From an uncultured Actinomycetes bacterium (GTDB lineage Bacteria > Actinomycetota > Actinomycetes > Nanopelagicales > Nanopelagicaceae), in the NCBI GenBank assembly GCA_937876245.1, contig CALEGP010000017.1:1-56920 (forward strand): a stretch of DNA of 56,920 nt. The letters are read 5' to 3'. The notes beneath the pieces are model-generated. The model did no database searches, was not told the origin of the DNA, and worked only from the letters and a program-made list of their open reading frames with translations. This document shows positions 33,254-56,920 of the stretch, piece by piece. The position numbers were made by a program, and so were the translations under genes. The stretch's first letter is position 1, and each line of letters starts with the position of its first letter.

Positions 33254-34216
33254 TTAATATTTTCGGTGCACTCCTTCGTGTTTAATCATAATTGCAATCA
33301 TTTCTGTAAAAGAAGTAATCGGCTTCCAACCAATAAGATTGTTGATTTTATTAGTGTTCCCAACAAGTCCAATCGTGTCATTTTTTCGGATAAGATCCTG
33401 GTCTATGGTAATAAAGGGTTGATAATTCCCGAGCCCTACCATTGTAAATGCTATCTGGCAGATTTCGCGCAATGAATGTAATTCTCCGGTTGCTACTACA
33501 AAATCATCAGGTATACCGTTTTTCATAATCATCAACATCGCTTTTACATAGTCGCCTGCATAACCCCAATCTCGAAGTGAGTCAATATTTCCAAGTGATA
33601 AGTAATCCCTTTTTCCCGAAGCTATTTCGAACGCTCCCAGAGTTATCTTGCGGGAGGCAAAAGTTGGTTTTCTTCGATGCGATTCATGATTAAAGAGAAT
33701 TGCCGTATAGACGGGAATTTCATATTCTTCACGAAATCTAATTGCGCTCTTATGTGCTTGATATTTGTGCAGCGCATATGGAGATTGTGGATTGAATTCC
33801 GAATTCTCGTGCAATGGTCCTTGTGGATTTGGTCCGAACATTTCCGAACTTGATGCTTGAAAGAATTTTATTGGACGCTTGTTCTTATCTTGTCGTTCTC
33901 TTAGTATTTGCAAGACTATTTCAACAAAACGATAATTAATTTGTTCTGATAGGTCTGGAAAGTCGAAAGAACTTTTCACGGAACTAAAAGAAGCAAGGTT
34001 ATATATGAAATCAGGATCATACTTATCGATAGTGTGTTCAATCAAGTCTCTATCTAACAAATCTCCGGAAATATATGTTACGCCGTTGATGCCATTTGGG
34101 GTCTGGGTTTCTGAGCCGTTTCTTACGAATCCGTAGACATCGTCCCCCTTAAGTAAGAGTTCCTCTGATAAAAACATTCCATCTTGACCAAGCGCACCAA
34201 ATATTAATGATTTCAT
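33254..34216 (-). CDS. GMD-like GDP-sugar 4,6-dehydratase (possibly GDP-heptose specific)
   Basis: The 320-aa SDR has LIFGALGQDGMFLSEELL, FFQASSSEMFG, SPYALHKYQAH (Y-x-x-x-K), LFNHESHRRKPTFASRKI and SLGNIDSLRDWGYAGDYV, so it belongs to the GDP-mannose 4,6-dehydratase group. In the two other GMD copies of this window the loop reads [13 protein letters not shown]; here it is N-H-E-S-H-R-R-K-P-T-F-A-S. That divergence, and the place next to GDP-heptose genes, suggests GDP-manno-heptose as substrate (DmhA-like). ATG 34216 was chosen as start. Confidence 0.86.
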   Translation of the reverse strand: MKSLIFGALGQDGMFLSEELLLKGDDVYGFVRNGSETQTPNGINGVTYISGDLLDRDLIEHTIDKYDPDFIYNLASFSSVKSSFDFPDLSEQINYRFVEIVLQILRERQDKNKRPIKFFQASSSEMFGPNPQGPLHENSEFNPQSPYALHKYQAHKSAIRFREEYEIPVYTAILFNHESHRRKPTFASRKITLGAFEIASGKRDYLSLGNIDSLRDWGYAGDYVKAMLMIMKNGIPDDFVVATGELHSLREICQIAFTMVGLGNYQPFITIDQDLIRKNDTIGLVGNTNKINNLIGWKPITSFTEMIAIMIKHEGVHRKY

Positions 34217-34252
34217 AAATACCAATTTTCTAGGAACGAAAAGTGATTCCTT

Positions 34253-35386: not shown

Positions 35387-35438
35387 GGCAGATATAGCAT
35401 AAACTAATGTTGTGGCAAACCAAAGCGAAGGACAGATA

Positions 35439-36395
35439 TTGAAGCAAAGAGAAATTGGTGGCTGGTTAATAACTGGTGGAGCCGGATATATAGGCTCGCA
35501 TATAGCCGCAGAGTTTTCGCGCTTAGATATTCCTTTTGCGATAATTGATAATGACAAAAACAAAATGGAAATTCGACTGCCAAATGCTGTTAACAAGTAT
35601 TTCGCTGATATCCGAAGTACTAGGGATTTAGAGCAAATTTTTGGTGGGAATAATTTTTCTGGTGTTATACATTTGGCAGCCTTGAAATCAGTTGAAGAAT
35701 CACAGAAATACCCCGCTATGTATGAGGAAACAAACGTAGAAGGAACTCGAAATATTCTTAAGGCGATGGAAAAATATGATGTGCAGAATTTGGTTTTTTC
35801 GAGTACTGCCGCCGTTTATGGTGAAACTGATAATGGAATTGTCACGGAGTCAACAAGAATTGAACCAATTTCGTATTACGGGAAAACTAAGGTGCTTTCG
35901 GAATTATTGATTGAGGAAGCAAATAAAGAATTCGATTTAAATTTTGTAAATTTGCGTTATTTCAACGTTGCCGGCTCATTAAATAAGAAATTACAGGATG
36001 ATCCCAAAGACAATTTGATCCCTATTGTTATTGATCAAATTCGAAATGGAGTTAATCCTAAGATTTTTGGTGATGATTACCCTACGCCCGATGGAACGGC
36101 TATACGTGACTATATCCATGTAGTTGACATCGTTGGTGCACATCTAGCAGCAGTAAACTATTTAACAAAAGGCGGTTCCAACCAAACTTTGAATATCGGG
36201 ACTGGGACTGGAACCTCGGTTCTAGAAATAGTTACGGAGATAATTTCGCAAATGGGATCCGATTTGGTTCCCGAATTTGTTGGTCGTAGGGAAGGCGATA
36301 TCGGCATTGTTGTGGCAGATCCATCAAAAGCTGAACATGTGCTTGGGTTCAAAGCCAAACACGAATTGGTCGAGATGGTGGCCTCGGTTCTATGA
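35439..36395 (+). CDS. galE: UDP-glucose 4-epimerase (GalE)
   Basis: The protein has WLITGGAGYIGSHIAAEF near its start, VIHLAALKSVEES, FSSTAAVYGE, YYGKTKVLSE (Y-x-x-x-K), RYFNVAGS and GTAIRDYIHVVDI, all typical of GalE, though at about 318 aa it is slightly short. GalE interconverts UDP-glucose and UDP-galactose, sometimes the N-acetyl forms. I prefer TTG 35439, preceded by GAAGGA at a good distance; GTG 35412 would add 9 residues. It overlaps the GT11 gene by 4 bp. UDP-galactose, or UDP-GalNAc, is the donor expected for the GT6 enzyme nearby. Confidence 0.9.
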   Translation: MKQREIGGWLITGGAGYIGSHIAAEFSRLDIPFAIIDNDKNKMEIRLPNAVNKYFADIRSTRDLEQIFGGNNFSGVIHLAALKSVEESQKYPAMYEETNVEGTRNILKAMEKYDVQNLVFSSTAAVYGETDNGIVTESTRIEPISYYGKTKVLSELLIEEANKEFDLNFVNLRYFNVAGSLNKKLQDDPKDNLIPIVIDQIRNGVNPKIFGDDYPTPDGTAIRDYIHVVDIVGAHLAAVNYLTKGGSNQTLNIGTGTGTSVLEIVTEIISQMGSDLVPEFVGRREGDIGIVVADPSKAEHVLGFKAKHELVEMVASVL

Positions 36396-37261
36396 AAAAC
36401 TCTAATGATTTAAAGGTTCGCCTCTTCGGGGGTTTGGGCAATCAACTTTTCCAGTATTTCGCTGGTTTAGATTTATCACTAAAGATTGGTTCCCGATTGA
36501 GAGTGGATGCTAGATGGATAGAAGCTTCCTATTCTCAGGATGAATCTGACATCAGAGACTTCAGGTTTCTCAAAGACACAGAAATAATTACTAAAATCGA
36601 ATCTGGGGGAATGAATTTCATTTTAGAGCGATTAAAAACTAAAATTGCTGGCAAATCGCAAGCTGCCGCTAAGTTCTTGGCTTTATTTGTACCAAATAAC
36701 CCTGGATTTATTGAATTTATAGACCTTGAGCCAGCAGTTGAACTTCGTGGTTATTTTCAATCACACAGATATTTCGAAAATGTAAATAAGAATCATAACT
36801 TGCAAGATTGGTCACTAAAAATTGAATCGCAACTATTCCTAGAAACTAGGCGTGAATTAGATTCAGCACCATTCATTGCGATTCACGTAAGAGGCGGGGA
36901 CTATTTGAATAAAACAAATATTTACCATAAATTAGGAGCAAGATATTATTTAGAATCGCTTAAATATTTAAGGGGAAAAATTGGCGACATTAAGGTGCTA
37001 GTTTTTAGTGATGATGCTGAGTATGCAAGAAATTATTTTGATCCTGATGCTGGATTTGAATTTCTAAATCAGGATGGATTACGGGCAAGTGAAGCTATGA
37101 TTTTAATGTCTTCGGCTAAAGGGATAATTACTGCCAACTCTACTTTTTCCTATTGGGCCGCAATGATTAACGCGGGGAATCATATTTGTGCGCCAAAGTT
37201 TTGGTATGCGAATACTGAGGCTGATGAAAATCTATATCCACCACATTGGAAACTTATTTAA
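36392..37261 (+). CDS. GT11 alpha-1,2-fucosyltransferase-like glycosyltransferase
   Basis: The 289-aa protein has GGLGNQLFQYFAGL at residues 13-26, VELRGYFQSHRYFEN near residue 117, IHVRGGDYL at 164-172 and ANSTFSYWAA near residue 251. The H-x-R-x-G-D-Y motif binds GDP-fucose in the GT11 family, which transfers L-fucose in alpha-1,2 linkage to galactose, as in the H antigen. GDP-fucose synthesis genes (gmd, fcl) lie at 41741-49616. It shares a transcript with galE and faces a GT2/GT6 pair. Linkage and acceptor are inferred from family. Confidence 0.9.
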   Translation: MKNSNDLKVRLFGGLGNQLFQYFAGLDLSLKIGSRLRVDARWIEASYSQDESDIRDFRFLKDTEIITKIESGGMNFILERLKTKIAGKSQAAAKFLALFVPNNPGFIEFIDLEPAVELRGYFQSHRYFENVNKNHNLQDWSLKIESQLFLETRRELDSAPFIAIHVRGGDYLNKTNIYHKLGARYYLESLKYLRGKIGDIKVLVFSDDAEYARNYFDPDAGFEFLNQDGLRASEAMILMSSAKGIITANSTFSYWAAMINAGNHICAPKFWYANTEADENLYPPHWKLI

Positions 37262-37277
37262 GGTTTTGCCTAATATC

Positions 37278-38219
37278 TCAAAGAGACTTTCTACGCTTCT
37301 GCATTTCCTTAAGCTGAATAATTGAAAGAATCGAATTTGGCTGGATTATTTGTCTGAATAATCCGGTGTGTTTTGTAAGTTTACGAACCCCAACTGCTTG
37401 ACTCATTTTCAAATACTTAGATAAATCTCGGAAAAACAAAATTTTTCTGGAAATCGTCTGAGTTGTTAAATTATAAACTTCGAAAGTTTCTTCAGCTTCA
37501 TCGAGAATGGCATCGATAGACAAGGTTTTTACGAATTCCTCTAATAAGAACCTGGTTTTCTTAATCATTTGTTCCTGATGCTTGCTTGTAATATTAGCTT
37601 TATGTATTGTGTAAAAAAGAAGTGTTTCAGGAATCGTCGCGATTTTGAACGATTTGGAGAGATTAATCCAGAGTGATAAATCTTCAGCTGGGAAATCCTC
37701 AGATCTATATCCCCCTAATCCAGTTACAGCGGTTTTCCTAAACATCACACTTGGATGCGGTGTTCGCTGGGGATTTAACAGTGAAAATCGAGTAAGGCGA
37801 GGCGAGATCGAAGTTGGAATAGTTCCCAGATCACGACCATCTGCAGAAAGAATTTGGTAGTCAGAGAATACGGCAGCGCAATTTGGATTTGTGGCCATAA
37901 ATTGAACCTGCCTGGAAATTCGTTTTGAACTGTATTTATCATCTATATCAGCACGAGCAATTAAATCATTCTCACAGTGCCTAATTCCATAATTTAGAGT
38001 TTCTACAAGTCCAGAGTGATTTTTGTTGATAATTTTAATTCTTGAATCCCTTTTTTCTATTTCTCTTAATTCCTCTTTTGAAATATCTTCAGAACCATCA
38101 TTTACAAGCACAAGCTCGTCGATTTCTCTCATACTCTCAAGAATTGATTTTATAGATCCATTTATAAATTTTGATCCGTTATATAGTGGTAGCAAAACAG
38201 AACAGGCTTGTTCTTTCAT
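37278..38219 (-). CDS. Family 2 glycosyltransferase
   Basis: The protein has CSVLLPLYNGSKFINGSI, ELVLVNDGSED, LIARADIDDKY (D-x-D) and PHPSVMFRKTAV; it is a standard inverting GT2 of about 313 aa. I set its start at ATG 38219, where it overlaps the stop of the GT6 gene in ATGA fashion; the longer frame to 38231 is less likely. GT6 and this GT2 are therefore translationally coupled. It converges with the GT11 gene with a 16-bp gap. Confidence 0.88.
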   Translation of the reverse strand: MKEQACSVLLPLYNGSKFINGSIKSILESMREIDELVLVNDGSEDISKEELREIEKRDSRIKIINKNHSGLVETLNYGIRHCENDLIARADIDDKYSSKRISRQVQFMATNPNCAAVFSDYQILSADGRDLGTIPTSISPRLTRFSLLNPQRTPHPSVMFRKTAVTGLGGYRSEDFPAEDLSLWINLSKSFKIATIPETLLFYTIHKANITSKHQEQMIKKTRFLLEEFVKTLSIDAILDEAEETFEVYNLTTQTISRKILFFRDLSKYLKMSQAVGVRKLTKHTGLFRQIIQPNSILSIIQLKEMQKRRKSL

Positions 38220-39022
38220 TGCCTTTCCCAATCAGTTCCCTTGCCCTTTTCAACGGCTATCAACGTAGGCTTTATGCCACTTAGTTGTGGATAATTTTCA
38301 TCATAACAAAACTTTGGGCTTAAGAGTGAAAATGTATTATTTGCCGCAAACCAGTTCAAATGACTTTCATCATGAAACTTGGCAATAACATTCCTTGAAA
38401 GGTCTTCCTGGATCCGTAAGCTTAAAGAACTACATAAATCAATTATCGAATTCTTTTTCCCAAACCAAGTGGCGCCACAGACATAAAGTTTTCTGTCTTT
38501 TCTGGGCACAAATGCTAACGAATCAGAATTTTTCTCCCAAGAACCAATTCCACCATTTAATAGCCAGGATTTAACGTCACTCAGAATATATCTTGGATTC
38601 CCTAAATAGAATATTACTTTTGCAGATTTAGACGGCCTGAAATATCCCGGGTGCCTGACCAAAGCAATTTCATGATTTCCAATCGCTTGGATTAAATCAT
38701 TCTTAGTTAGTGAACCTGCGAAAAGCATATCGGCGTCCAAATGCATAACAATTTCACCCTGAACCTTATCGGCAGCTTTTGCCAATAATTCATAGCGTAA
38801 GAGAGTTGGCATTGGCCAAGGCGAACTTTCGAATCGAACTGTTACAAGATTTGTACCAAGTCTTTCAGATACAGCCCGCGGGATATCGTTTTCGCGATTA
38901 GTAAAGAGGATCCACTGAACATTAAGGTCTTTATCTAGGAATTGCTCAGCGGTACGAAGAAGTTCAAGCCAGTAATCGAGGTAACGGTCCGTTGCAACTG
39001 AAAAAATAGTTAACTGTGCCAT
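38216..39022 (-). CDS. GT6-family (ABO histo-blood-group-like) glycosyltransferase
   Basis: The 268-aa protein matches GT6: PWPMPTLLRYELL near residue 68, HLDADML with the D-x-D metal motif at 96-98, AFVPRKDRKLYVCGATWFG near residue 170, KFHDESHLNWF at 216-226 and LLSPKFCYDENYP near residue 234. Human A/B transferases share W-H-D-E-S-H-L-N and K-x-L-S-P-E-Y. GT6 enzymes add galactose or GalNAc alpha-1,3 to a fucosylated or plain galactose. The GT11 gene 2 kb away would make the fucosylated acceptor. From memory many bacterial GT6 proteins carry N-x-N instead of D-x-D, so the D-A-D here is notable. Donor choice cannot be set from sequence. Confidence 0.87.
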   Translation of the reverse strand: MAQLTIFSVATDRYLDYWLELLRTAEQFLDKDLNVQWILFTNRENDIPRAVSERLGTNLVTVRFESSPWPMPTLLRYELLAKAADKVQGEIVMHLDADMLFAGSLTKNDLIQAIGNHEIALVRHPGYFRPSKSAKVIFYLGNPRYILSDVKSWLLNGGIGSWEKNSDSLAFVPRKDRKLYVCGATWFGKKNSIIDLCSSLSLRIQEDLSRNVIAKFHDESHLNWFAANNTFSLLSPKFCYDENYPQLSGIKPTLIAVEKGKGTDWERQ

Positions 39023-39107
39023 TGGTTAAGAATAACTCTTTTAGGCGGTATTAGGGCAGAATTAGTCCAATAGATTGGTTACGTCAAGAAAGTGGATTAT
39101 CAAAGAG

Positions 39108-39902
39108 ATGATTATTGTAGAAAATAGGAAGTTACAGAATGCACGACCTTTTTTTACAATTATAACGGTGGTCAGGAATGGCTCGACCGCTTTACAGAAA
39201 TGTATTAACAGTATTAAGGCGCAAACGTTTCAAGATTTTGAGTATCTCATTATTGATGGTGCTTCCTCGGATGGGACTATCGAATTAATAAGAGATAATT
39301 CAGATGTTGTAAGTTTTGCGGTGTCTGAAGAGGATCAGGGTCTTTATTTTGCCATGAACAGAGGCCTGAAACTGGCAAGTGGAAAATATATTGGCATACT
39401 CAACGCTGACGACATCTATTTTCCAAACACTCTAGATTTAGTTCAGGACGCGATTCGCAAAGATTCAAATAGCGATGTCATTTATGGTGCCATGAGTTAT
39501 TTTAGTCAACCCGATCAAGTACATTTTATTCACCATGATGAACTGCCCAAGCGAATGATCTTCCACCCAACATGTTTTGTTTCAAGCGAAGCCTACAAAA
39601 GAATTGGAGAATTCGACACAAAATATCAAGTAGCAGCTGACTATGAATTCATTATGCGCTGTTTCAGGGCTGGGGAGAAGTTTCTTGGCTTACATAAAGT
39701 TCTAGCTTCTTTCAGCGAAGGCGGAACATCAGCAAGGCTTCGATTTCAATCGATACTTGAAACATCAGAAATTCAAGGAAGGTATAACTTTGAATCGAAT
39801 GCTCGCCGATTTCTAAAACTTTCACGCCTTCTCATAGTGACCTATTTAAGGGTTATATTGGGCAAGGCTCAAGGCTGGTTTGAATCGACTGTGAGAAGAT
39901 AG
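39108..39902 (+). CDS. Family 2 glycosyltransferase (WcaA-like)
   Basis: The protein has FTIITVVRNGSTALQKCI, LIIDGASSDGT, GLYFAMNRGLKLASG and GILNADDIY, so it is a GT2 of the WcaA/colanic-acid type, often transferring glucose, galactose or N-acetyl sugars. About 264 aa from ATG 39108; an upstream in-frame TTG at 39075 would add 11 residues. It diverges from the GT6 gene and lies 5 bp ahead of the ABC transporter gene, so it is likely transcribed with it. Confidence 0.87.
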   Translation: MIIVENRKLQNARPFFTIITVVRNGSTALQKCINSIKAQTFQDFEYLIIDGASSDGTIELIRDNSDVVSFAVSEEDQGLYFAMNRGLKLASGKYIGILNADDIYFPNTLDLVQDAIRKDSNSDVIYGAMSYFSQPDQVHFIHHDELPKRMIFHPTCFVSSEAYKRIGEFDTKYQVAADYEFIMRCFRAGEKFLGLHKVLASFSEGGTSARLRFQSILETSEIQGRYNFESNARRFLKLSRLLIVTYLRVILGKAQGWFESTVRR

Positions 39903-39907
39903 ACCTG

Positions 39908-41740
39908 ATGAATTTAGGAGAGAAGTGGCGCAAGACCATAATAGGTAGATCTGCACGCATATTTTCGCGTCGGGACCAGAAAAAGATTTTCGCAGTAATT
40001 ATTTTGCAAATTTGCTTAGGCTTTCTCGATTTAATTGGCGTAGCAATTATTGGAATTTTAGGCGCCTTGGCGATAAGTGGAATCCAATCCGGCACGCCGG
40101 GCAATCGGGTTAGTTCCGCTCTTAACCTTCTTCATATAGGAAATCAATCTTTCCAGGCGCAGGCAGCAATACTGGGTCTAGGTGCGGCGGTGATACTGAT
40201 TGGTCGAACTCTGTTATCTGTATTTTTCACTCGGAAAACTTTGTTTTTTCTTAGTCGTCGTGGGGCCGTTATTTCTTCAGAACTTGTATCAAAACTGCTA
40301 TCGCAATCTTTGCAAAAGATTCAAGAGCGTACAAACCAAGAAACAATTTATGCTGTAACTTATGGTGTAACAACAATTGCACTTGGTATTTTGGGCGCAG
40401 CTGTTGCTCTTATTTCTGATACCTCTCTACTGATTGTAATGGCCATAGGTTTATTTATAGTTGATCCAACAATCGCTTTTGGGACTTTCTTAGTCTTCGC
40501 AATTATAGGTTTGATCATGCATCGCTTGATGAACGTTAGAGCAAAGTCTTTGGGTATTAGGAATTGGGAGTTGTCGTTAAGAGGTGATGAAAAAATTGTT
40601 GAAGTTTTGAATTCTTATCGTGAAATAATCGTTAGGAACAGAAGAGAATACTACGCGCGAGAGATAGCACATTCGCGAATGGAACTTGCGAATGTTATGG
40701 CAGAAATTCAATTCATGCCCAACATAAGTAAGTATGTAATTGAATCCACCGTCGTGCTTGGTGCGCTTTCAATTAGTGCAGCTCAATTTCTCATACAGGA
40801 TGCAAAACATGCTGTTGCAACCCTTGCGGTTTTCCTAGCTGCTGGAACAAGAATTGCGCCTGCAATATTGCGTATTCAACAAGGAACTATTCAGATCAGA
40901 AATAGTTTGGGTGCGGCTACTCCGACTCTTCAATTGATCGAGTCCTTGGCGGAAACGAAATTAGCCCATAGGGTTTTTGACAATGTAATAACTGATCATG
41001 AAAATTTTGAAGGCAAAGTTGAGATTAATAATTTGACTTTACTTTATCCTGGCAAAATAGTTCCCGCGCTAGAAAATATAAATCTGGCTTTCAATCATGG
41101 TGAGTCTATTGCGATTGTGGGTCCTTCGGGCGCTGGCAAAACTTCATTAGTTGATGTTCTACTTGGAGTTTTAGAACCTACGGAGGGGTCTGTAAGGATT
41201 TCAGGGTTTCCCCCAATCCAAGCAATCATTAAATGGCCGGGTGCCATTTCGTATGTTCCTCAGGATGTGGCTATTTCAAAGGGTTCGGTGAGAGAGAATG
41301 TTGCACTTGGCTACCCAGTTGAAGTAGCAACCAATGAGTTGGTTGATTCAGCACTCGAGATTGCTCACTTGGATGGTTTCGTTAGGAGTTTGCCTGAGGG
41401 GATTGATGCTCAAGTTGGCGAACGGGGAGCCAAAATAAGTGGTGGTCAGAGACAACGCCTAGGAATTGCACGAGCAATGTTTACGAAGCCTTCGATGCTG
41501 GTTCTTGACGAGGCTACTAGTGCGCTTGATGGCGAAACTGAAACAAATATTTCGGAGGCTATACAAGGCTTACGGGGTTCTGTGACAGTAGTAATGATTG
41601 CCCATAGGCTTTCGACAGTCAGAAATGCGGATTTAGTGGTCTATATGGAAGCTGGAAAAATTATTGCATCAGGCACCTTCAAAGAAGTTAGAAATCAAGT
41701 CCCGGATTTCGATAATCAAGCCAAGTTAATGGGGCTGTAA
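39908..41740 (+). CDS. ABC transporter, fused permease and ATPase (PglK-like lipid-linked glycan flippase)
   Basis: The 610-aa protein has an N-terminal six-helix membrane domain (about residues 25-340) and a C-terminal ATPase with GPSGAGKTSLVD (Walker A), ISGGQRQRLGIARAMF (signature), MLVLDEATSALDGE (Walker B) and I-A-H-R-L-S (H-loop). Half-size transporters of this kind in glycan clusters flip lipid-linked oligosaccharides (PglK, WlaB) across the membrane. No Wzx-type flippase occurs in the window. It follows a GT2 by 5 bp and ends back-to-back with gmd. A diverged, dead copy of its C-terminal half lies at 43259-44335. Confidence 0.88.
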   Translation: MNLGEKWRKTIIGRSARIFSRRDQKKIFAVIILQICLGFLDLIGVAIIGILGALAISGIQSGTPGNRVSSALNLLHIGNQSFQAQAAILGLGAAVILIGRTLLSVFFTRKTLFFLSRRGAVISSELVSKLLSQSLQKIQERTNQETIYAVTYGVTTIALGILGAAVALISDTSLLIVMAIGLFIVDPTIAFGTFLVFAIIGLIMHRLMNVRAKSLGIRNWELSLRGDEKIVEVLNSYREIIVRNRREYYAREIAHSRMELANVMAEIQFMPNISKYVIESTVVLGALSISAAQFLIQDAKHAVATLAVFLAAGTRIAPAILRIQQGTIQIRNSLGAATPTLQLIESLAETKLAHRVFDNVITDHENFEGKVEINNLTLLYPGKIVPALENINLAFNHGESIAIVGPSGAGKTSLVDVLLGVLEPTEGSVRISGFPPIQAIIKWPGAISYVPQDVAISKGSVRENVALGYPVEVATNELVDSALEIAHLDGFVRSLPEGIDAQVGERGAKISGGQRQRLGIARAMFTKPSMLVLDEATSALDGETETNISEAIQGLRGSVTVVMIAHRLSTVRNADLVVYMEAGKIIASGTFKEVRNQVPDFDNQAKLMGL

Positions 41741-42724
41741 TTATTTCCCGCTTGTTAAGAGTTCTAAATCAGCGGCAACCATCAACTTTGCAAGTTCACT
41801 CCAGTGTGTCTTAGCCTTCCAGCCTAGAACTTTTTCTGTCTTAGAAGGATCTCCTATTAATGCATCAACCTCGGTAGGGCGAATATACCTATCTTCCGTT
41901 TCAACATATTTCCTATAGTCAAGTCCTACTTCAGAGAATGCAACCTCACAGAAATCGCGGACAGTTGCGCCTTCACCTGTGGCAACAACGTAATCATCTG
42001 GCTTCTCTTGTTGCAACATTAGCCACATGCTCTCTACATACTCTTTGGCGTAACCCCAGTCGCGAACTGCCTCGAGGTTTCCAAGATAAAGTTTTTCTTG
42101 TAGTCCTAATTTAATTCTGGCAGCGGCCATAGTAATTTTGCGAGTAACAAAGGTTTCACCCCGACGGGGTGACTCGTGATTGAAGAGAATGCCATTTGTT
42201 GCATGGATTCCATAGCCTTCGCGGTAATTTCGAACGATCCAATATGCATAGAGCTTCGCGGCCGCATATGGGCTTCTTGGGGCGAAGAGAGAAAGTTCAC
42301 TCTGAGGAGGAGGAGTACTTCCATATAGTTCAGAGGTCGAAGCTTGATAAAACTTGGTATCAATCTTCGCGGAGCGAATTGCTTCAAGCATTCGAATTGT
42401 TCCCAGAGCATCTACTTGAGCTGTGAAATCTGGCATCTCGAAAGATACTTTGACATGGCTTTGAGCTGCCAAATTGTATATTTCGTGAGGTTGTAATTCG
42501 CGAATTAGGTTTGAGATTCCTACTCCGTCTGTGATATCACCATAATGCAAGAAAAGGTTTGACGCAGTGTCATGAGGATCCTTGTATAGATGTTCAATTC
42601 GGGCTGTATTGAAAGAAGAACTTCTGCGAATCATGCCGTGAACCTCATAGCCTTTTTCAAGGAGAAGTTCGGCAAGATAAGAACCATCTTGTCCGGTAAT
42701 ACCCGTAATTAGAGCACGCTTCAC
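41741..42724 (-). CDS. gmd: GDP-mannose 4,6-dehydratase, first copy
   Basis: The 327-aa protein has [44 protein letters not shown] (Y-x-x-x-K), [17 protein letters not shown] and [15 protein letters not shown], all hallmarks of GMD, which makes GDP-4-keto-6-deoxymannose. It appears identical to the second copy (47706-48689) in the N-terminal part but differs in the last 130 or so residues. Its neighbour, the fcl copy, is truncated, so GDP-fucose formation from this copy would need the intact fcl at 48690. The abrupt change at 42147 marks a recombination border. Confidence 0.93.
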
Positions 42725-43258
42725 TTATGACACCTTTTCTTGATGATTATTAAGATACCAATCATAAACAGATTTAACGCCTTCTTCTAGCGAAATCTCG
42801 GCTTTCCAACCTGTTTCCTGAAGGAGTGAAGAATCTAGAAGTTTTCTTGGAGTTCCATTTGGCTTTTTAGCGTCAAAAGCTATTTTTCCTTCGAATCCGA
42901 CAGTTCTTGCAATTAAGTTAGCCAAATCAAAAATTGAAAGCTCTGAACTGCTCCCGATGTTGAAAAGAGATTCCTTAGTTTTGAATTCCAAGAGATGAAA
43001 AATGGCTTTGGATAGATCATCCACGTGCATAAATTCGCGAAGTGGGGTCCCATCTCCCCAAAGCTTGACTTCTGTTTGCCCCTCAATCTTGGCAAGGTGA
43101 AATCTATGAAGTAAGCCAGGTAAAACGTGAGAGGTTTCAATATCAAAGTTATCATTTGGCCCGTACATGTTTGTAGGCATCAGAGAAATCCAATTATGAC
43201 CATATTCTTTGCGATAAGCATCTATAAGTTTTACTCCTGATATTTTTGCAATTGCATA
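42147..43258 (-). repeat. Direct repeat, left copy (about 1.1 kb, gmd 5' part plus fcl 3' part)
   Basis: By reading line against line, this segment matches 48112-49223 with no mismatch seen, at a constant offset of 5,965 bp and the same orientation. On the left the two copies diverge at once in the gmd 3' part; on the right this copy breaks off inside fcl and joins a piece of an ABC transporter gene. Recombination between the two copies would remove a 5,965-bp unit. Confidence 0.9.
42725..43258 (-). pseudogene. Truncated GDP-L-fucose synthase gene (5' end missing)
   Basis: The sequence equals the last 178 or so codons of the intact fcl at 48690-49616, including K-I-S-G-V-K and SLMPTNMYGPNDNFD, but the first 131 codons, with the NADP-binding glycine motif, are absent. 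At 43258/43259 it abuts a piece of ABC transporter gene in the opposite direction. An internal ATG at 43180 would give a 151-aa open frame, which lacks the Rossmann domain and should not be active. Confidence 0.88.
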
Positions 43259-44335
43259 CTCGGTAGAGGAAGATTTGATTTAGCAGAAGTTCAGGCTGAA
43301 ATGCAACTTATGCCGAACATTAGTAAATACTTTATGCAGTCCACTTTAATTGTGGGAGCTCTTTTAATTAGTGCGACCCAGTTCGCTTTTCAAGCTTCCA
43401 GACATGCTATAGGAACACTTGCCGTTTTCCTTGCAACTGGAACAAGACTGGCACCAGCAATCATGAGAATCCAGCAAGGAGCAATTACAATTAGAAATAG
43501 TTCCGCGGTAGAAGCCCCTACTCTAGATTTGATTGACTCCTTAGATTCTTATGTTTCTGTCGATGAGGTTGTCGGTAACCTAGATCTTGAGCATCATGGA
43601 TTTGAATCTGAGGTTGAAATGTCTAACATATAGTTCTCTTATCCAGAAAGTACTACGCCGGCTCTTTTAAATATAGAACTAAAAATAGAAGAAGCGATGA
43701 GAGTAGCGATAGTTGGTTCATCTGGCGCAGGATAGACTTCGCTCGTTGATTTATTATTGGGCATTTTTCAACCAGATTTTGGTGAGGTTAATATTTCTGG
43801 CCTTCCACCCCTTCTAGCTATTAATTCCTGGCCTGGAGCGATTGCATATGTTCCGCAAGATATTGTGATTTCAAACGGAACAATCCGGAGGAATGTTGGT
43901 CTTGGATTCCTGATAGATGCTGCTACTGATGAAATCGTATTTAATGCGCTAAAAATCGCTCAACTTACTGATTTTGTGACTGAGCTCGACAAAGGAATTG
44001 ATTCTGAGGTTGGAATCCGTGGAACAAGGATGAGTGGTGGACAAAGACAAAGACTTGGAATTGCTCGTGCCATGTTTACAAATCCTAAGCTTTTGGTTTT
44101 GGACGAAGCCACAAGTTCCTTGGATGGGATTACCGAGTTTGCCATTTCAGAAGCGATCAACGCCCTCAAAGGTTCGGTTACAGTAATAATGATTGCCCAT
44201 CGACTTTCTACTGCTCGCAGCGCAGATTTGGTGGTTTATATCGATATGGGCAGATTGATAGCTTCCGGCTCTTTCGAAGACGTAAGGGCTCAGGTTCCTG
44301 ACTTTGATCAGCAGGCAAAGTTAATAGGAACGTAG
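43259..44335 (+). pseudogene. Remnant of a second ABC-transporter flippase gene with two in-frame stops
   Basis: The frame from 43259 matches the C-terminal half of the transporter at 39908: RFDLAEVQAEMQLMPNISKY aligns with RMELANVMAEIQFMPNISKY, then the last membrane helices and the ATPase domain. Two TAG stops occur in the same frame: one at 43631 just before F-S-Y-P, and one about 43733 at the Walker A lysine (G-A-G-stop-T-S). The later signature MSGGQRQRLG and Walker B LLVLDEATSSLDG are intact. With the 5' half missing and the catalytic Lys codon mutated it cannot function. The two copies are only moderately similar, so they are old paralogues. Confidence 0.9.
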
Positions 44336-47705: not shown

Positions 47706-48689
47706 TTAGTTTTTTATTTCAAGCAGATAAGAATCTGCTTGAACCATCAACTTTGCAAGTTCTTTCCAATGTGTTTTAGCCTTCCAACCAAGCACCTTTT
47801 GAGCTTTGGACGGATCCCCAATAAGAGCATCGACCTCCGTAGGTCGAATGTAGCGATCCTCGGTTTCCACATATTGCTTATAGTCAAGACCTAAGTCCGC
47901 GAAGGCAACTTCACAGAAATCTCGTACCGTTGCACCTTCGCCTGTAGCAACAACATAATCATCTGGGTTTTCTTGCTGAAGCATTAGCCACATGCTTTCT
48001 ACATACTCTTTGGCGTATCCCCAGTCTCGTACGGCATCCAGATTCCCAAGATAGAGCTTCTCTTGGAGCCCAAGTTTGATTCGGGCAGCGGCCATCGTTA
48101 TTTTTCTAGTTACAAAGGTTTCACCCCGACGGGGTGACTCGTGATTGAAGAGAATGCCATTTGTTGCATGGATTCCATAGCCTTCGCGGTAATTTCGAAC
48201 GATCCAATATGCATAGAGCTTCGCGGCCGCATATGGGCTTCTTGGGGCGAAGAGAGAAAGTTCACTCTGAGGAGGAGGAGTACTTCCATATAGTTCAGAG
48301 GTCGAAGCTTGATAAAACTTGGTATCAATCTTCGCGGAGCGAATTGCTTCAAGCATTCGAATTGTTCCCAGAGCATCTACTTGAGCTGTGAAATCTGGCA
48401 TCTCGAAAGATACTTTGACATGGCTTTGAGCTGCCAAATTGTATATTTCGTGAGGTTGTAATTCGCGAATTAGGTTTGAGATTCCTACTCCGTCTGTGAT
48501 ATCACCATAATGCAAGAAAAGGTTTGACGCAGTGTCATGAGGATCCTTGTATAGATGTTCAATTCGGGCTGTATTGAAAGAAGAACTTCTGCGAATCATG
48601 CCGTGAACCTCATAGCCTTTTTCAAGGAGAAGTTCGGCAAGATAAGAACCATCTTGTCCGGTAATACCCGTAATTAGAGCACGCTTCAC
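47706..48689 (-). CDS. gmd: GDP-mannose 4,6-dehydratase, second copy
   Basis: The 327-aa protein shares with copy 1 the motifs [40 protein letters not shown] and [10 protein letters not shown]. Differences from copy 1 are confined to the C-terminal part (for example [13 protein letters not shown] against [13 protein letters not shown]). It is followed upstream, 1 bp apart, by an intact fcl gene; together they convert GDP-mannose to GDP-L-fucose, the donor for the GT11 enzyme at 36392. Confidence 0.93.
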
Positions 48690-49223
48690 TTATGACACCT
48701 TTTCTTGATGATTATTAAGATACCAATCATAAACAGATTTAACGCCTTCTTCTAGCGAAATCTCGGCTTTCCAACCTGTTTCCTGAAGGAGTGAAGAATC
48801 TAGAAGTTTTCTTGGAGTTCCATTTGGCTTTTTAGCGTCAAAAGCTATTTTTCCTTCGAATCCGACAGTTCTTGCAATTAAGTTAGCCAAATCAAAAATT
48901 GAAAGCTCTGAACTGCTCCCGATGTTGAAAAGAGATTCCTTAGTTTTGAATTCCAAGAGATGAAAAATGGCTTTGGATAGATCATCCACGTGCATAAATT
49001 CGCGAAGTGGGGTCCCATCTCCCCAAAGCTTGACTTCTGTTTGCCCCTCAATCTTGGCAAGGTGAAATCTATGAAGTAAGCCAGGTAAAACGTGAGAGGT
49101 TTCAATATCAAAGTTATCATTTGGCCCGTACATGTTTGTAGGCATCAGAGAAATCCAATTATGACCATATTCTTTGCGATAAGCATCTATAAGTTTTACT
49201 CCTGATATTTTTGCAATTGCATA
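48112..49223 (-). repeat. Direct repeat, right copy
   Basis: Counterpart of 42147-43258, with no mismatch seen on reading. The right copy carries complete flanks on both sides (whole gmd and whole fcl), so it is the likely parent, or both were homogenised by gene conversion. Confidence 0.9.
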
Positions 49224-49616
49224 TGGTTCGTTAGTTGGTTCAAGTGGCCCTGTGAGCAGGGAAGACTCTGAAATTGGTTGAGGCGCGAACTTAGGATAAA
49301 TACATGAAGATCCCAAGAAAATAACTTTTCCAATATTAGCTTCATGGGCTGCATCAATCAAATTGGTTTGAATTTGTAAATTTAGCGTTAAAAACTCGAC
49401 CGGATAAGTTGAGTTTGCTCCGATACCACCAACCTTGGCTGCTGCAATAATTAATACGTCAGGAGAAATTGCATTTAACTCTCTAAAAGTGTCTTCCCGA
49501 TTGGTGAAATCTAACTCTTTGGATGATTTTCCAAATACTTGAATCTTCTCATCGCGAAATTTTCGCGAAATTGATGATCCAACCATCCCATTAATTCCGG
49601 CAATATAGGTTTTCAT
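48690..49616 (-). CDS. fcl: GDP-L-fucose synthase
   Basis: The 308-aa SDR has TYIAGINGMVGSSISRKF at the start (NADP site), AAAKVGGIGANSTYP, FLGSSCIYPKFAPQPISE, PYAIAKISGVKLIDAY (Y-x-x-x-K) and SLMPTNMYGPNDNFD. These are the classic Fcl/WcaG motifs, including the Ser-Cys-His-type epimerase site (S-S-C). It epimerises and reduces GDP-4-keto-6-deoxymannose to GDP-L-fucose. It is 1 bp from gmd copy 2 and is the only intact fcl in the window. Confidence 0.93.
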   Translation of the reverse strand: MKTYIAGINGMVGSSISRKFRDEKIQVFGKSSKELDFTNREDTFRELNAISPDVLIIAAAKVGGIGANSTYPVEFLTLNLQIQTNLIDAAHEANIGKVIFLGSSCIYPKFAPQPISESSLLTGPLEPTNEPYAIAKISGVKLIDAYRKEYGHNWISLMPTNMYGPNDNFDIETSHVLPGLLHRFHLAKIEGQTEVKLWGDGTPLREFMHVDDLSKAIFHLLEFKTKESLFNIGSSSELSIFDLANLIARTVGFEGKIAFDAKKPNGTPRKLLDSSLLQETGWKAEISLEEGVKSVYDWYLNNHQEKVS

Positions 49617-51759: not shown

Positions 51760-52977
51760 TTAAAGAGTGTGTGTACCAGCTATTCGGCCTAAGCAGTCAA
51801 AAACATAGTCACTTGAATTAAGAATTGCTTGATAATCAAAAATACCGTGATGTAAGGTTATTATTGTTGCATCATATTTCGTTTGGTCCAAGGAAACAGA
51901 GTTTTGACCATTCCAACTTTCAACTACCGGGTCATGCCAAGCCACTGTCGCCCCTTCAGCTTCTAGTTCTGTAATAAGCACCCTTGCTGGCGTTTCTCTG
52001 GTGTCTGCAATATTTGGTTTATATGAAACCCCACAAATTAAAATTGATTTTCCTTTCAGGGACCCTCCATTTTCAGCCTTAACAATCCCTACGATCGCCG
52101 CCGGCATGTGCAAATTAACCTCATTGGCCAACTCAATGAATCTTGGTTGAACGCCCGCCTTTGATGCCACAAAAGCCAAGTAGCTAGGGTCCACGGGGAT
52201 GCAGTGGCCACCGACGCCTAACCCTGGGCTAAATTTCATAAATCCATAGGGCTTAGTGTTTGCGGCATCTAAGACTTCATTAGTGGGAATCTCAAGTGCG
52301 TTCATTATTGTAGCAAATTCATTCACTAATGCAATATTTACCTGCCGAAACGTATTTTCGAAAAGTTTCGCCGCCTCAGCCACTTCCGGTCTTGAAACCT
52401 CAATTATATTTTCACAAATTTGTCCATACAGTTTCCTAGTCATTAACGTTGCATCTTGAGTTAATCCAGCAATCAGCCTCGGAGTGTTTGAAATCTTCCA
52501 AATCAAATTGCCGGGATCAACCCTTTCGGGCGAGACAGCAAAAGTATGTTCTACTCCCGGTAGGGATTTCTTGGTAACCGTGGGCGCTATGACATCTCTC
52601 AAAGTCCCAGGGAAGGAAGTGGATTCATTGATTATTAAACTGTCTTGAGTTAATACTTCTCCGATCATTTCGGATGCTGCAATCACAAATGAAAGATCAG
52701 GTTCACGCAATCTGTTAAGTGGCGTAGGAACAGCGATAATAACGACGTTACAGTCTGAAATATCCGTAGGTCGCGACGAGGCCAAGTAATTTCCTTGAAT
52801 AATTAATTCATTTAAATCTTGGGACTCAATATCTTCGATAGGGGAAATTCCGGAATTCAATTGTGAAACCCTGCTGACATCAATATCAAATCCAGTTACA
52901 TTAAAACCCTCACTTGCAAAAGCAACAGCAAGTGGTAATCCCACATAACCTTGCCCGACTATTCCTATTTTTGTCAT
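51760..52977 (-). CDS. UDP-glucose/UDP-N-acetyl-sugar 6-dehydrogenase family protein
   Basis: The 405-aa protein has IGIVGQGYVGLPLAVAFA (NAD site), ESTSFPGTLRDVI, AVSPERVDPGN, ENTFRQVNIALVNE and GLGVGGHCIPVDPSYLA near residue 257, where Cys is catalytic. G-H-C-I-P-V-D-P is the pattern of WbpA/TviB/WecC-type enzymes that oxidise C6 of UDP-GlcNAc or UDP-ManNAc; UDP-glucose is less likely. It overlaps the ligase-family gene by 4 bp. A UDP-uronate would be the product for the glycan. Confidence 0.9.
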   Translation of the reverse strand: MTKIGIVGQGYVGLPLAVAFASEGFNVTGFDIDVSRVSQLNSGISPIEDIESQDLNELIIQGNYLASSRPTDISDCNVVIIAVPTPLNRLREPDLSFVIAASEMIGEVLTQDSLIINESTSFPGTLRDVIAPTVTKKSLPGVEHTFAVSPERVDPGNLIWKISNTPRLIAGLTQDATLMTRKLYGQICENIIEVSRPEVAEAAKLFENTFRQVNIALVNEFATIMNALEIPTNEVLDAANTKPYGFMKFSPGLGVGGHCIPVDPSYLAFVASKAGVQPRFIELANEVNLHMPAAIVGIVKAENGGSLKGKSILICGVSYKPNIADTRETPARVLITELEAEGATVAWHDPVVESWNGQNSVSLDQTKYDATIITLHHGIFDYQAILNSSDYVFDCLGRIAGTHTL

Positions 52978-54683
52978 TTAATTGTAATTTCTGGGTTTAG
53001 TTTTTGCATTTTCTTTTTCGCGAGCGCAACAATTTTGGGATTAGGTTTCATGAGGGTATTCTCAATCTTCAACACTAATTCCCAGCCATTATAGTCTCTG
53101 GGATTATTTTTCAAAACTATTTCTAGCAATCTTTTAGATTGATCAACTAGCCCATTCGTCGCCAAAACTTGAACGCCTTGAATTATTCTCTTGTTATCAT
53201 GAGGACTTAAAAGAACCGCATCAATAATCTTTTCAGCGCTTCGGGCCTCAATGGCGGAATTAAAACTAGAATCAGCTCTAAAATTAGGCACGACTAATAT
53301 TAGTCCCGTAAGTAATCCTCCCAAACCGGCAAAAGCAACTAACTTCCAGCGTCTACCAACTACAGAAACGCGCTCTTTGATGAGGGAATTCTTAGCTTCA
53401 GATTTTTGGACTGCCTTGTGACTGGCTTCTCTTGATTGAATTTCAATTCCGACAAGTACGCCCATCAAGATCCACCCCCAAATTGCGAGTCCAATTTGGT
53501 TAATACTAATGATGCCCTGAGCTATGTATCCTAACCAGGCTCCTACTAATCCTGCATAAGCCCAATTATATTGCCGAGCCCGGATCACATATTTAAAAAC
53601 CGACCACAGGGTGAAAATGCTTAGTAACAACGATATAGTAAGAAGCGGAAACCCGCCCACAGCACCAAAATTTAGAAAAATATTATGGGCTTCATTGCTA
53701 TTGGTCGAAGCTGTGTGAAATGCTGCATTCGCGGAACGTAACGATAAGTACCAATCGCCATACGAATCAAATCCCACGCCCACAAAAGGATGAGATTTCA
53801 ACATTTCTATCGCAGCGTGCCAATAGTACCCTCGCTGCCGCACTGATAATTTATATATTAAGTCTGAAAGTGGTCCAATATTTAACATAGCCAAGCCGAC
53901 TGTCGAGCCTGCTATTGATGCAAGACCCAGAAAAGGTAATAAAATAGCTGTTCGTGCGAGTTTTGGTGTTCCCAGCAAGAACAAAAAAGCAATAATCGTA
54001 CAGCCTAAGCCTAATACAAGAATACCTTGTAAAGAATTACTTCTAATTATCAATAATAGATTTCCGATAAAACAAAACACCGATACTGCTCTTACTCTAT
54101 TATTCAATTGTGGTTGCAAGATGAAACTAAACCCCACAATACCAAAAATCCCCAAGAAACTAGACGCAAAATTTGGATTACCCAAAAATCCAATTATGTT
54201 GTTGTATGGGTTAGCCCAAGGGATAGGATCTAAACCTAAAGTTTGGAGTGTCGAGTAAAACGCCGAAATTAATCCTGCCCCGAGTATCCCCAAGGCCATT
54301 TTGCGAAGAACCCGGGTGCTCGAAATTATCGATGCCGATAACGCAAAAATAGAAAAACTCAGATATGTCAAGAACCCAGTATTTCGGCCGTTGGTTCCAT
54401 AAAACTTTTGATTAAATGGAGCAGGAGCGAAAAAAAGAACAAAAAATAGTTGCAATATAAATAAAGATATCAAAATCAGAAATATCGAATTATTTCGTAT
54501 TAAATAGATTTTAAAATTTGTCACCATTATCGCAAAAATTGACAGCGCACACGGTACAAGTAAAGTCATTTTAGATTGATTAAATGGATCTGCAGATATA
54601 AATGGTGTTATTAATAAGCAAATTGCAGGGCCGGAAAATAATAATATCTTGCTCATTAAAGTATCATCTATTGTTCTGTTCAC
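52974..54683 (-). CDS. O-antigen ligase / polymerase family membrane protein
   Basis: The 569-aa protein has about eleven hydrophobic helices across residues 10-430, with a large loop before TNSNEAHNIFLNFGAVGG near residue 330, the Wzy_C-type motif (His near N-I-F). A soluble C-terminal tail of about 100 residues looks TPR-like (DQSKRLLEIVLKNNPRDYNGW). Proteins of this family either polymerise glycan repeats (Wzy), attach glycan to a lipid core, or O-glycosylate proteins. Actinobacteria have no lipid A, so polymerisation or protein O-glycosylation is more likely. It sits beside the S-layer-like gene, a plausible target. Confidence 0.82.
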   Translation of the reverse strand: MNRTIDDTLMSKILLFSGPAICLLITPFISADPFNQSKMTLLVPCALSIFAIMVTNFKIYLIRNNSIFLILISLFILQLFFVLFFAPAPFNQKFYGTNGRNTGFLTYLSFSIFALSASIISSTRVLRKMALGILGAGLISAFYSTLQTLGLDPIPWANPYNNIIGFLGNPNFASSFLGIFGIVGFSFILQPQLNNRVRAVSVFCFIGNLLLIIRSNSLQGILVLGLGCTIIAFLFLLGTPKLARTAILLPFLGLASIAGSTVGLAMLNIGPLSDLIYKLSVRQRGYYWHAAIEMLKSHPFVGVGFDSYGDWYLSLRSANAAFHTASTNSNEAHNIFLNFGAVGGFPLLTISLLLSIFTLWSVFKYVIRARQYNWAYAGLVGAWLGYIAQGIISINQIGLAIWGWILMGVLVGIEIQSREASHKAVQKSEAKNSLIKERVSVVGRRWKLVAFAGLGGLLTGLILVVPNFRADSSFNSAIEARSAEKIIDAVLLSPHDNKRIIQGVQVLATNGLVDQSKRLLEIVLKNNPRDYNGWELVLKIENTLMKPNPKIVALAKKKMQKLNPEITIK

Positions 54684-54834: not shown

Positions 54835-56685
54835 TTATAGCTTAGAAACTGCCTTAGCAAGCTTCTTAACCTCTGCGATTAGCTTCTTAACTTGCTTTGC
54901 AAGTGCTGTAGTAGCAGCTAGCGCATCTGATGCAGCCTGTGTTGCATTTTGGGCTTCATCGTATGCATTGTTAGCAGCATCTGTTGCAGCGTTTGCTGCA
55001 TCAAGTGCTAAAGAAGCTGACGGATCAGCATCGATGGTTGCTACTGCTTTAATGGTTGTTCCCGCGGCAGATGTTGCATATGCCTCGAAAGAACCAGAAA
55101 CGGCTGGCGCAAAAACTGCAGGAGCTGTTGCATCAGCAGATGTAAGGTCTGAACCATTTACATACCAACCTATAGCTGGAGTAGTTCCACCAGTTGCCTT
55201 AGTGAAAGAAACGGCTGGAGAAGCTGTTCCGTCTGCCACAACATTGCCTGAGGCATCTACGGCTGTACGTGTGACTAGCATTGGTGCGCCAGCTTCGTAA
55301 CTTGCAGCGTCTAGAGTCAGTGTTTCAGTAGCTGCGGTAGTTGAACCAACAGTTACATTAATTGTGGTCGAGATATAAACAGTTGCATCCGCAGGGTCTA
55401 ACGCACGGATTGTTAGAGTTGCCTTATCGCCAGTCTTGGCAGAAGCAGCTGTTGTAAATGAGCAGTTATAGTACCCAATACCATTTGTGCTACTTGTTGC
55501 CGCAGCATTGTCGACATCAACGATACCGCCATCTAGGCCACAAGTGCCACTAGCAACAACCGAAGTTGCGCTTGAAGAGATTGTTGGAGTTAGGTTTGCT
55601 ACGTTTCCAGAAACATCAGTTGCCTTAACAATAAAGGCAGGAACTGTGGTACCTGCATCTAATGGGGACAGAAGATTTCCAGCTGCAGTACGTGTTGTAC
55701 CGCCGTATCCAGTTGTGTCTCCGCCTGCTACACCAACTGTAAAGTTAGTAGCTGCTAAAGCAAACGCAGTTACATCACCAAATGTTGAGTAGCTAAATGT
55801 TCCAAGAACGGTAGAAACTGAAGTAGCAGCATCTGTAACAGAAACCGTAACAGTACCTACTCCGGCAGTTCCATCTGCTTCAATGTGAACATAACGCAAA
55901 TTATTCGTTGCAGAGTCCTCAGATACACGAGTAGTGAAAGCTGTGTCTGTATTCGCAGTAGTGTTAACTTCAACGTAACCCCCACCGGTGACATATGCAC
56001 TAATAGTGTGTGCACTATTATCCGCAACTCCAGCATCGTCAAGAAGAGTTACTTTAATTTGTGCTATTTGAGTTCCAGCAACCTTAGATCCAGTTCTTGG
56101 AATTGCGTTAGTTGTTGAAGAAGCGCTTGCTCCACCAGCGGTTCCGGCTGTCATGTATGCAGTTGATTGACCGATATCCAAACTAGATCCTGCGGCAACA
56201 ACCATGGTGACATTTGTCGTTGCTGAAGTTACATATCCTGAGGCTGTCCATGTATTAACGGATACATCCAAGGTGTATGTACCAGGAACTGATGTTGCAG
56301 TCAATGGAGTAACATCTGAAGTCAATCCTACTGCTGCTGCTGCTGCTGCTGAATTTGTAGTCAAGTTACCATAACCACGAAGAGTTACTGTGACTGAATC
56401 ATCGCTGCCGATGCCGCCAACAGTTGGAATCAGCTTCAAAGTAAATGTGTCACCTGCTGTGACACTGAATGAGCTAACTCCTGCAGAATCTAGAACTGTG
56501 CTTGCTGTGTAATACCCAGCAACTAGTGGTGTAAGAACTGGTCCTATTGTAGTGTACTTTGAAACGACGATTGTTGTCGCAGTTCCGACGGCAGCATTTG
56601 CTGCTGGTACTGCTGAGAATCCAGCAATAGCCAACGCAGAAGTTGCCACAAGCGCAATGCGCTTAAAGCTTGTCTTTGTAGACAT
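54835..56685 (-). CDS. Secreted surface (S-layer-like) protein
   Basis: The 616-aa protein starts MSTKTSFKRIALVATSAL (basic then hydrophobic) and has a signal peptide ending A-N-A, cut before A-V-G near residue 31. The mature part is Thr/Ser/Ala/Val-rich and beta-strand-like, with several Ig-like repeats, few charges and a pair of Cys (G-T-C-G-L-D, Y-N-C-S). The last 70 residues are an Ala/Asp/Asn-rich helix (DAANAATDAANNAYDEAQ) ending with Lys-rich K-K-L repeats, which may hold it to the wall. ATG 56685 follows GAAAGGAAAC. The abundant Ser/Thr would suit O-glycosylation. G+C looks higher than in the island. Confidence 0.85.
   Translation of the reverse strand: MSTKTSFKRIALVATSALAIAGFSAVPAANAAVGTATTIVVSKYTTIGPVLTPLVAGYYTASTVLDSAGVSSFSVTAGDTFTLKLIPTVGGIGSDDSVTVTLRGYGNLTTNSAAAAAAVGLTSDVTPLTATSVPGTYTLDVSVNTWTASGYVTSATTNVTMVVAAGSSLDIGQSTAYMTAGTAGGASASSTTNAIPRTGSKVAGTQIAQIKVTLLDDAGVADNSAHTISAYVTGGGYVEVNTTANTDTAFTTRVSEDSATNNLRYVHIEADGTAGVGTVTVSVTDAATSVSTVLGTFSYSTFGDVTAFALAATNFTVGVAGGDTTGYGGTTRTAAGNLLSPLDAGTTVPAFIVKATDVSGNVANLTPTISSSATSVVASGTCGLDGGIVDVDNAAATSSTNGIGYYNCSFTTAASAKTGDKATLTIRALDPADATVYISTTINVTVGSTTAATETLTLDAASYEAGAPMLVTRTAVDASGNVVADGTASPAVSFTKATGGTTPAIGWYVNGSDLTSADATAPAVFAPAVSGSFEAYATSAAGTTIKAVATIDADPSASLALDAANAATDAANNAYDEAQNATQAASDALAATTALAKQVKKLIAEVKKLAKAVSKL
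56331..56351 (-). repeat. (CTG)7 trinucleotide repeat in the S-layer-like gene
   Basis: Seven CTG units (CAG in the coding strand) encode the poly-Ala stretch S-A-A-A-A-A-A-V near residue 115. In-frame length change is possible without loss of frame. It is the only trinucleotide microsatellite noticed. Confidence 0.85.
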
Positions 56686-56920
56686 TTGTTTCCTTTCGAT
56701 TGTCGAGGACTGGAACTTCCAGCTCTCGGCTTTGAGATGAGTCGCACGTGCTGACGCATCTCTTTTCTGCTGCAATATCCGGATTGCACCAGAAACCTTT
56801 TTCTTATTCTCCTTAGGCCACATAGGTAGCCTGCCCAAGAATTTGAGTCTTGCCTGGGTTTAGTAGGAGAACTGTTGTGATCTGAGAAGGGGCGGACTTG
56901 CTGTCAACGCCACGACTCGC
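56686..56920 (-). promoter_or_regulatory. Upstream region and structured leader of the S-layer-like gene
   Basis: The 235 bp upstream of ATG 56685 hold no gene. Two good hairpins lie close to the gene: 56706-56726 (CTGGAA/TTCCAG with extra GAG/CTC pairs) and 56734-56762 (GAGATG/CATCTC with GTC/GAC and a GCACGTGC core). A third, smaller one (CAAGA/TCTTG) is near 56834-56853. A long structured 5' leader is common for abundant S-layer messages. TTGACA on the minus strand near 56901-56906 may be a -35 element, but no clear -10 was seen. The open frame upstream is probably not translated. Confidence 0.5.

Follow-up and report, generated by a model that had tools for sequence, protein, structure and literature searches.

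Can an actinobacterium build a sugar tip of the blood-group type? This question is raised by a stretch of 56,920 nucleotides (hereafter the window; contig CALEGP010000017.1 of assembly GCA_937876245.1) from an uncultured bacterium of the Nanopelagicaceae, in which a UDP-glucose/galactose 4-epimerase (GalE), a fucosyltransferase of glycosyltransferase family 11 (GT11), and an ABO-family enzyme of family 6 (GT6) all lie inside 3.6 kb. The first-pass annotation, made from the letters of the DNA, had pointed to this block, with the motif I-H-V-R-G-G-D-Y in the GT11, and to an actinobacterial owner; the three genes do exceed the cut-offs of their profiles (TIGR01179, PF01531, and PF03414, respectively), and four WhiB genes support the assignment to the Actinomycetota. 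A search for rhodopsin, as a hint of life in sunlit plankton, gave no match, and neither did its controls, so that it speaks neither for nor against such a habitat. The reading that we regard as probable is that this block serves a surface-glycan island as its part for terminal decoration, making a B- or A-like tip on a fucosylated galactose, and it is based on the families, the fold, the catalytic residues, the recurrent pairing of GT6 with GT11, and the passage of the GT6 gene from one genus to another.

The proposed placement of the GT6 enzyme in the ABO family was upheld both by its profile (64.4 bits against PF03414, cut-off 25) and by structure prediction against human ABO (Z ~26). It is the sole match to this profile in its own 1.52 Mb genome, and the window's own genome is the only one with a GT6 among 396 spread over the phylum, so that chance can be dismissed as the source of the match; given also that only 5 of 296 genomes of the same family have a GT6, the gene is rare here. 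The score against NF041524, a model of family 6 transferases, was 113.9 bits, below the cut-off of 250, and so the enzyme does not belong to the subfamily described by this model, although it is still a GT6. The solved structures closest by sequence are BoGT6a, bovine alpha-1,3-galactosyltransferase, and human ABO, and the same proteins were recovered from the model built with AlphaFold2 on a 41-row alignment (predicted local distance difference test, pLDDT, 95.4). When this model was compared using Foldseek and VIA-align, BoGT6a ranked first (Z 29.7, root-mean-square deviation 1.8 over 229 residues), with ABO at Z ~26.5 and the bovine enzyme at ~25.5, and the top structural rows were all GT6.

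The catalytic residues were mapped on a 150-row alignment that includes human GTA (sequence identical to PDB 1wsz over residues 2-261), in which the equivalents of human D211, D213, H233, H301-D302-E303, and K346 are all retained in the window GT6. The two motifs noticed at first pass are thus both present and aligned to those of human ABO, D-A-D with D211-V-D213 and K-F-H-D-E-S-H-L-N with W300-H-D-E303-S-H-L-N, and a retaining enzyme is predicted, its metal dependence being suggested by the D-x-D. The donor positions 266 and 268 are Cys and Ala, in comparison with Leu/Gly in GTA and Met/Ala in GTB. As the alanine is GTB-like, yet position 268 does not decide the donor (PMC4202792), the preference is only slight, and galactose appears somewhat more likely than N-acetylgalactosamine (GalNAc).

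The strongest support for the GT6 acting on the product of the GT11 comes from the gene neighbourhood. A profile constructed from the GT11 proteins of the window and of phages located a GT11 within 3 kb of the GT6 in 52 of the 80 bacterial loci (directly adjacent in 30) and in 62 of 80 viral contigs, and after dereplication at 60% identity in 34 of 52 loci (22 adjacent) and 14 of 15 contigs. Of the dereplicated bacterial loci, 20 had flanks of 9 kb or more on each side; these contained 14 GT11 genes, every one separated from the GT6 by less than 3 kb (10 of them by less than 1 kb), and none was found at 3-9 kb from the GT6. The two activities are even joined in a natural fusion, a single open reading frame (ORF) of 907 aa from Candidatus Haliotispira prima (L079:10001-12724), with GT6 at residues 3-214 and GT11 at 256-529, followed by a stretch that looks like a GT2 domain. 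Given this recurrent adjacency, the suggestion that GT6 and GT11 form a functional pair gains comparative evidence.

Similar arrangements are found closer to the window. A GT11 is present in four of the five GT6 genomes of the same family, against 24 of the 291 others (Fisher p 3e-4, a guide only, as the genomes are related). In a distant relative from another genus (G264), fcl, gmd, a GalE-like gene, GT11, and GT6 lie within 6 kb, the GT11 overlapping the GT6 by ~100 bp, and are surrounded by two GT2-type genes, an ABC transporter, a Wzy_C-like protein, and an initiating transferase, and in G048 the GT6 and GT11 share a contig of 4.35 kb. The GT11 is directly upstream of the GT6 in the cyanophages S-CAM9, Bellamy, DSL-LC02, and DSL-LC03, and in cyanophage ACG-2014f, where the GT11 is one gene further from the GT6, the two are grouped with gmd and an epimerase.

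For the GT11 itself, a phmmer search with the single sequence returned no matches among solved structures and the GT11 profile only marginal ones to FUT8, and so the comparison was made by fold. The model (pLDDT 84.6) is closest to fucosyltransferases (Arabidopsis FUT1, NodZ, POFUT1, and FUT8), and of the HxRRxD motif the H, the first R, which has been reported as critical (PMC4202792), and the D are kept, the second R being replaced by G. The linkage made is most likely alpha-1,2, judging from the family.

The first-pass annotation had also considered D-x-D unusual among bacterial GT6 enzymes and a possible sign of a separate lineage. The former holds, as the non-actinobacterial bacterial rows of the 150-row alignment have N-x-N in 58 cases, N-x-T in 6, N-x-D in 1, and D-x-D in 11. 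The motif is also found in all 62 viral rows, five phage isolates, and six actinobacterial rows, and, being common to cyanophages, Chlamydiae, Dependentiae, and vertebrates, it was ruled out as the mark, on its own, of a new lineage; a metal-dependent D-x-D GT6 of Parachlamydia has already been published, as have GT6 enzymes in two cyanophages (PMC3961637). A separate lineage was nevertheless recovered, as a probable actinobacterial subgroup marked by a two-helix insert of ~25 residues. In a tree made by quick search, with support given by the approximate likelihood ratio test (SH-aLRT), a single branch (98%) sets the N-x-N and other rows apart, the window GT6 being excluded from them, and the latter clusters with L011, L012, L013, and L014, all from the Actinomycetota, a cluster that is probable rather than proven, given that its support (85-93%) is not starred and its branches are long.

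The insert lies between human positions 233 and 245, in a loop of 38 residues in the window, 32-39 in the actinobacterial group, and 10-17 in nearly all others, and a betaproteobacterial enzyme unrelated to this group (L044) also has a long loop, of 35 residues. At about the same place, loop 126-150 of BoGT6a becomes ordered upon substrate binding (PMC3961637), and so the insert, predicted to form two helices, may shape part of the acceptor site. In Akkermansia and related loci (L042, L052, L067, and L032), the GT6 has N-G-T and an extra N-terminal part fused to it, and a long GT11 protein adjoins.

The GT6 gene appears to have been transferred. Its DNA is 88.8% identical between the window and G043, a genome of another genus, with rpoB only 78.7% identical, and a gene of a variable island that is closer than rpoB indicates recent passage between the genera; the divergent GT2 lies within the tract in common, which is ~1.85 kb long (38014-39852). 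When the window GT6 was the sole query, no match was obtained in the viral contigs; the GT6 alignment gave 562. GT6 relatives are also encoded in two records labelled "Bacteriophage sp.", both from human faeces (MT838506.1 and MT836157.1).

How these genes could work together may be outlined as follows, the linkages, donor, acceptor, metal dependence, export route, and role as a variable surface sugar under phage pressure being those that we infer. GalE would provide UDP-galactose, and Gmd with the intact Fcl would provide GDP-L-fucose, while the adjacent GT2 and GT4 enzymes would assemble a lipid-linked oligosaccharide with a terminal galactose. The GT11 would fucosylate this galactose, and the GT6 would then transfer galactose or GalNAc in alpha-1,3 linkage onto the same fucosylated galactose, resulting in a B- or A-like trisaccharide, which the ABC transporter would flip and the Wzy_C-type protein would transfer to the surface. 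The genes for the supply of GDP-fucose and of UDP-Gal(NAc), the GT11, and the GT6 are all in one genome (the fcl being below its equivalog cut-off). Given that the glycosyltransferase genes of lake bacterioplankton are fast-evolving, which has been attributed to phage recognition (PMC9426551), a changeable phage receptor seems a more plausible role for the glycan than mimicry of an animal host. The first-pass idea that host-like glycans could help the cell to evade phages or grazers gained no support.

Several observations weigh against a B- or A-like tip. The GT11 and GalE genes are on the strand opposite to that of the GT6 and of the GT2 at 37278-38231; G043, with the closest GT6 (86% identical), has its own GT11 ~42 kb from the GT6, and no GT11 was found in G277 (GT6 50% identical), whose contig ends near the GT6. 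The W300 equivalent is Phe, and, together with the larger acceptor-side loop, this may mean that acceptor use differs. The replacement of the second Arg by Gly is shared by just one further GT11 row in the set, and the GT11 family includes an alpha-1,3-fucosyltransferase, HhFT2 (PMC4202792). The opposite strands, the distant GT11 of G043, the loop with its W300F change, and the 28 of 80 bacterial loci that have no GT11 in the stretch examined would all suit a GT6 that uses another acceptor, either a non-fucosylated galactose, as an alpha-1,3-galactosyltransferase does, or another sugar, next to a GT11 that fucosylates elsewhere, the two having become neighbours by the build-up of glycosyltransferases in the island. 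We consider this unlikely, in view of the tight clustering of GT11 around GT6, the fusion protein, and the same set of genes in G264, G048, and the phages, and G043 still has its GT11 elsewhere.

The genes may also be relics of a decaying and recombining island in which GT6 and GT11 are no longer productive, as a truncated fcl, a truncated ABC copy, a direct duplication of 95% identity, and the changed GT11 motif might suggest. This is less probable still, and improbable in absolute terms, given that GT6, GT11, GalE, gmd, and one fcl each have an open reading frame of full length, that the catalytic residues of the GT6 are intact, and that the frame of the G043 GT6, 89% identical in DNA, is also open.

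Among the closest parallels to the two enzymes is Escherichia coli O86, where WbwK (GT11) and WbnI (GT6) are reported to produce blood group B (PMC4202792). Both organisms have GT6 and GT11, which act consecutively on galactose in E. coli and are predicted to do so in the window; on the other hand, the former makes a Gram-negative O-antigen, and bacterial GT6 is given as N-x-N (PMC4202792), in contrast to the D-x-D of the window. BoGT6a and BgtA of Helicobacter mustelae, which are A-antigen synthases, share the GT6 fold, BoGT6a being the closest structure, and act, like WbnI, on Fuc-alpha-1,2-Gal (PMC3961637, PMC4202792), but BoGT6a is N-x-N, metal-independent, without the two-helix insert, and ~20% identical over the fold. 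The cassettes of cyanophages (Kyanoviridae) share D-x-D and, in four of five isolates read, the GT11 directly upstream, but their GT6 is 27-30% identical, lacks the insert, and belongs to viral genomes. The Parachlamydia enzyme shares D-x-D and is metal-dependent (PMC3961637). Human GTA and GTB share the fold (Z ~26), the DxD, and the equivalents of H233, D302-E303, and K346, but are ~20% identical and differ at positions 266/268, and the window enzyme is without a Golgi anchor.

The chemistry is therefore precedented in E. coli O86, H. mustelae BgtA, and Bacteroides ovatus BoGT6a (PMC4202792, PMC3961637). As far as the literature shows, two things appear new: a group of actinobacterial GT6 enzymes that have D-x-D and carry the insert, and how widely GT6 and GT11 are linked, with viruses and a natural fusion among the cases. 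The organism probably decorates its cell with a blood-group-like tip, to judge by its genes. More tentatively, and with some doubt on our part, a cassette for an H-then-A/B glycan may circulate among free-living aquatic bacteria and viruses, the actinobacterial subgroup making such tips without animal association and phages carrying the pair to re-decorate their hosts. Bacterial A/B-like antigens have so far mostly been viewed as mimicry of an animal host or as gene capture from vertebrates. If this wider idea is true, blood-group-type chemistry would be primarily a surface trait of microbes and phages, not host mimicry. The GT6-GT11 pair of this small-genome actinobacterium, which recurs side by side in cyanophages, Chlamydiae, spirochaetes, and many others, suggests a glycan module that is widespread among microbes, with the N-x-N enzymes known from gut bacteria as one of its branches. 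The window supplies concrete, easily expressed enzymes with which to probe such tips in non-host bacteria and phages.

Table 1. Features of the glycan island in the window.
Feature	Position	Strand	Evidence or remark
GalE, UDP-glucose/galactose 4-epimerase	35412..36395 (start possibly 35439)	+	TIGR01179 290.6 bits, cut-off 262.3
GT11 fucosyltransferase, motif H165-V-R-G-G-D170	36392..37261	+	PF01531 70.9 bits, cut-off 23.9; 4-bp overlap with galE
GT2 glycosyltransferase between GT11 and GT6	37278..38231	-	PF00535; 16-bp overlap with GT6
GT6 (ABO/alpha-1,3-GalT family), D96-A-D98, H124, H217-D-E219, K259, two-helix insert	38216..39022	-	PF03414, structure matches, residues
GT6 acceptor-side loop, residues ~130-164, insert ~25 residues (predicted helices 132-141 and 143-156)	codons 38531..38635	-	Alignment, predicted secondary structure
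GT2 glycosyltransferase, transcribed divergently from GT6	39075..39902	+	Beside GT6 in three genomes
ABC transporter (MsbA/PglK-like), candidate lipid-linked glycan flippase	39908..41740	+	PF00005; NF050066 PglK 214.6 bits, below cut-off 1000
gmd copy 1, GDP-mannose 4,6-dehydratase	41741..42724	-	TIGR01472 519 bits, cut-off 415
fcl fragment, C-terminal 151 aa	42725..43180	-	NF047922 positions 160-307 only
gmd copy 2	47706..48689	-	TIGR01472 517.6 bits
Full-length fcl-like GDP-L-fucose synthase	48690..49616	-	NF047922 427.5 bits, below cut-off 500
O-antigen ligase/polymerase-like (Wzy_C-type) membrane protein, candidate glycan ligase	52974..54683	-	PF04932 42.8 bits, over cut-off

The genes of the island run in the order GalE(+), GT11(+), GT2(-), GT6(-), GT2(+), ABC(+), gmd(-), and fcl fragment(-), with the second gmd and the intact fcl at 47706-49616 (Table 1). 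Both GT2 genes have counterparts at other actinobacterial GT6 loci: a 51% identical counterpart of the first adjoins the GT6 of L013, and counterparts of the second are beside the GT6 in L011 (65%) and L013 (43%). The claim that gmd and fcl are nearby stands for gmd, of which a complete copy is close, and fails in part for fcl, as the close one is only a fragment and the intact one is 9.7 kb off. A direct duplication of 1482 bp (41777-43258 and 47742-49223, 95.1% identity, 5965 bp apart) carries gmd along with the 3' portion of fcl, with a partial ABC copy (43757-44335) between the two stretches, and looks like recombination within the island.

Although the island resembles a lipid-linked glycan system, a PF02397 initiating sugar transferase, of which G264 has one, was not found in the 99.99% complete genome, in which nine control searches were positive; three PF00953 proteins are present, one of which could start the glycan chain. 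A further, diverged gmd-like dehydratase (33254-34225; 238.6 bits, gmd cut-off 415) lies ~1.2 kb from GalE, and its product is perhaps another GDP-sugar. Beside the Wzy_C gene, at 54835-56838, there is a repetitive secreted-type protein of 667 aa with no Pfam match, which is a possible glycan acceptor, and a similar-looking protein is found near the GT6 of another locus (L206, 4204-6960).

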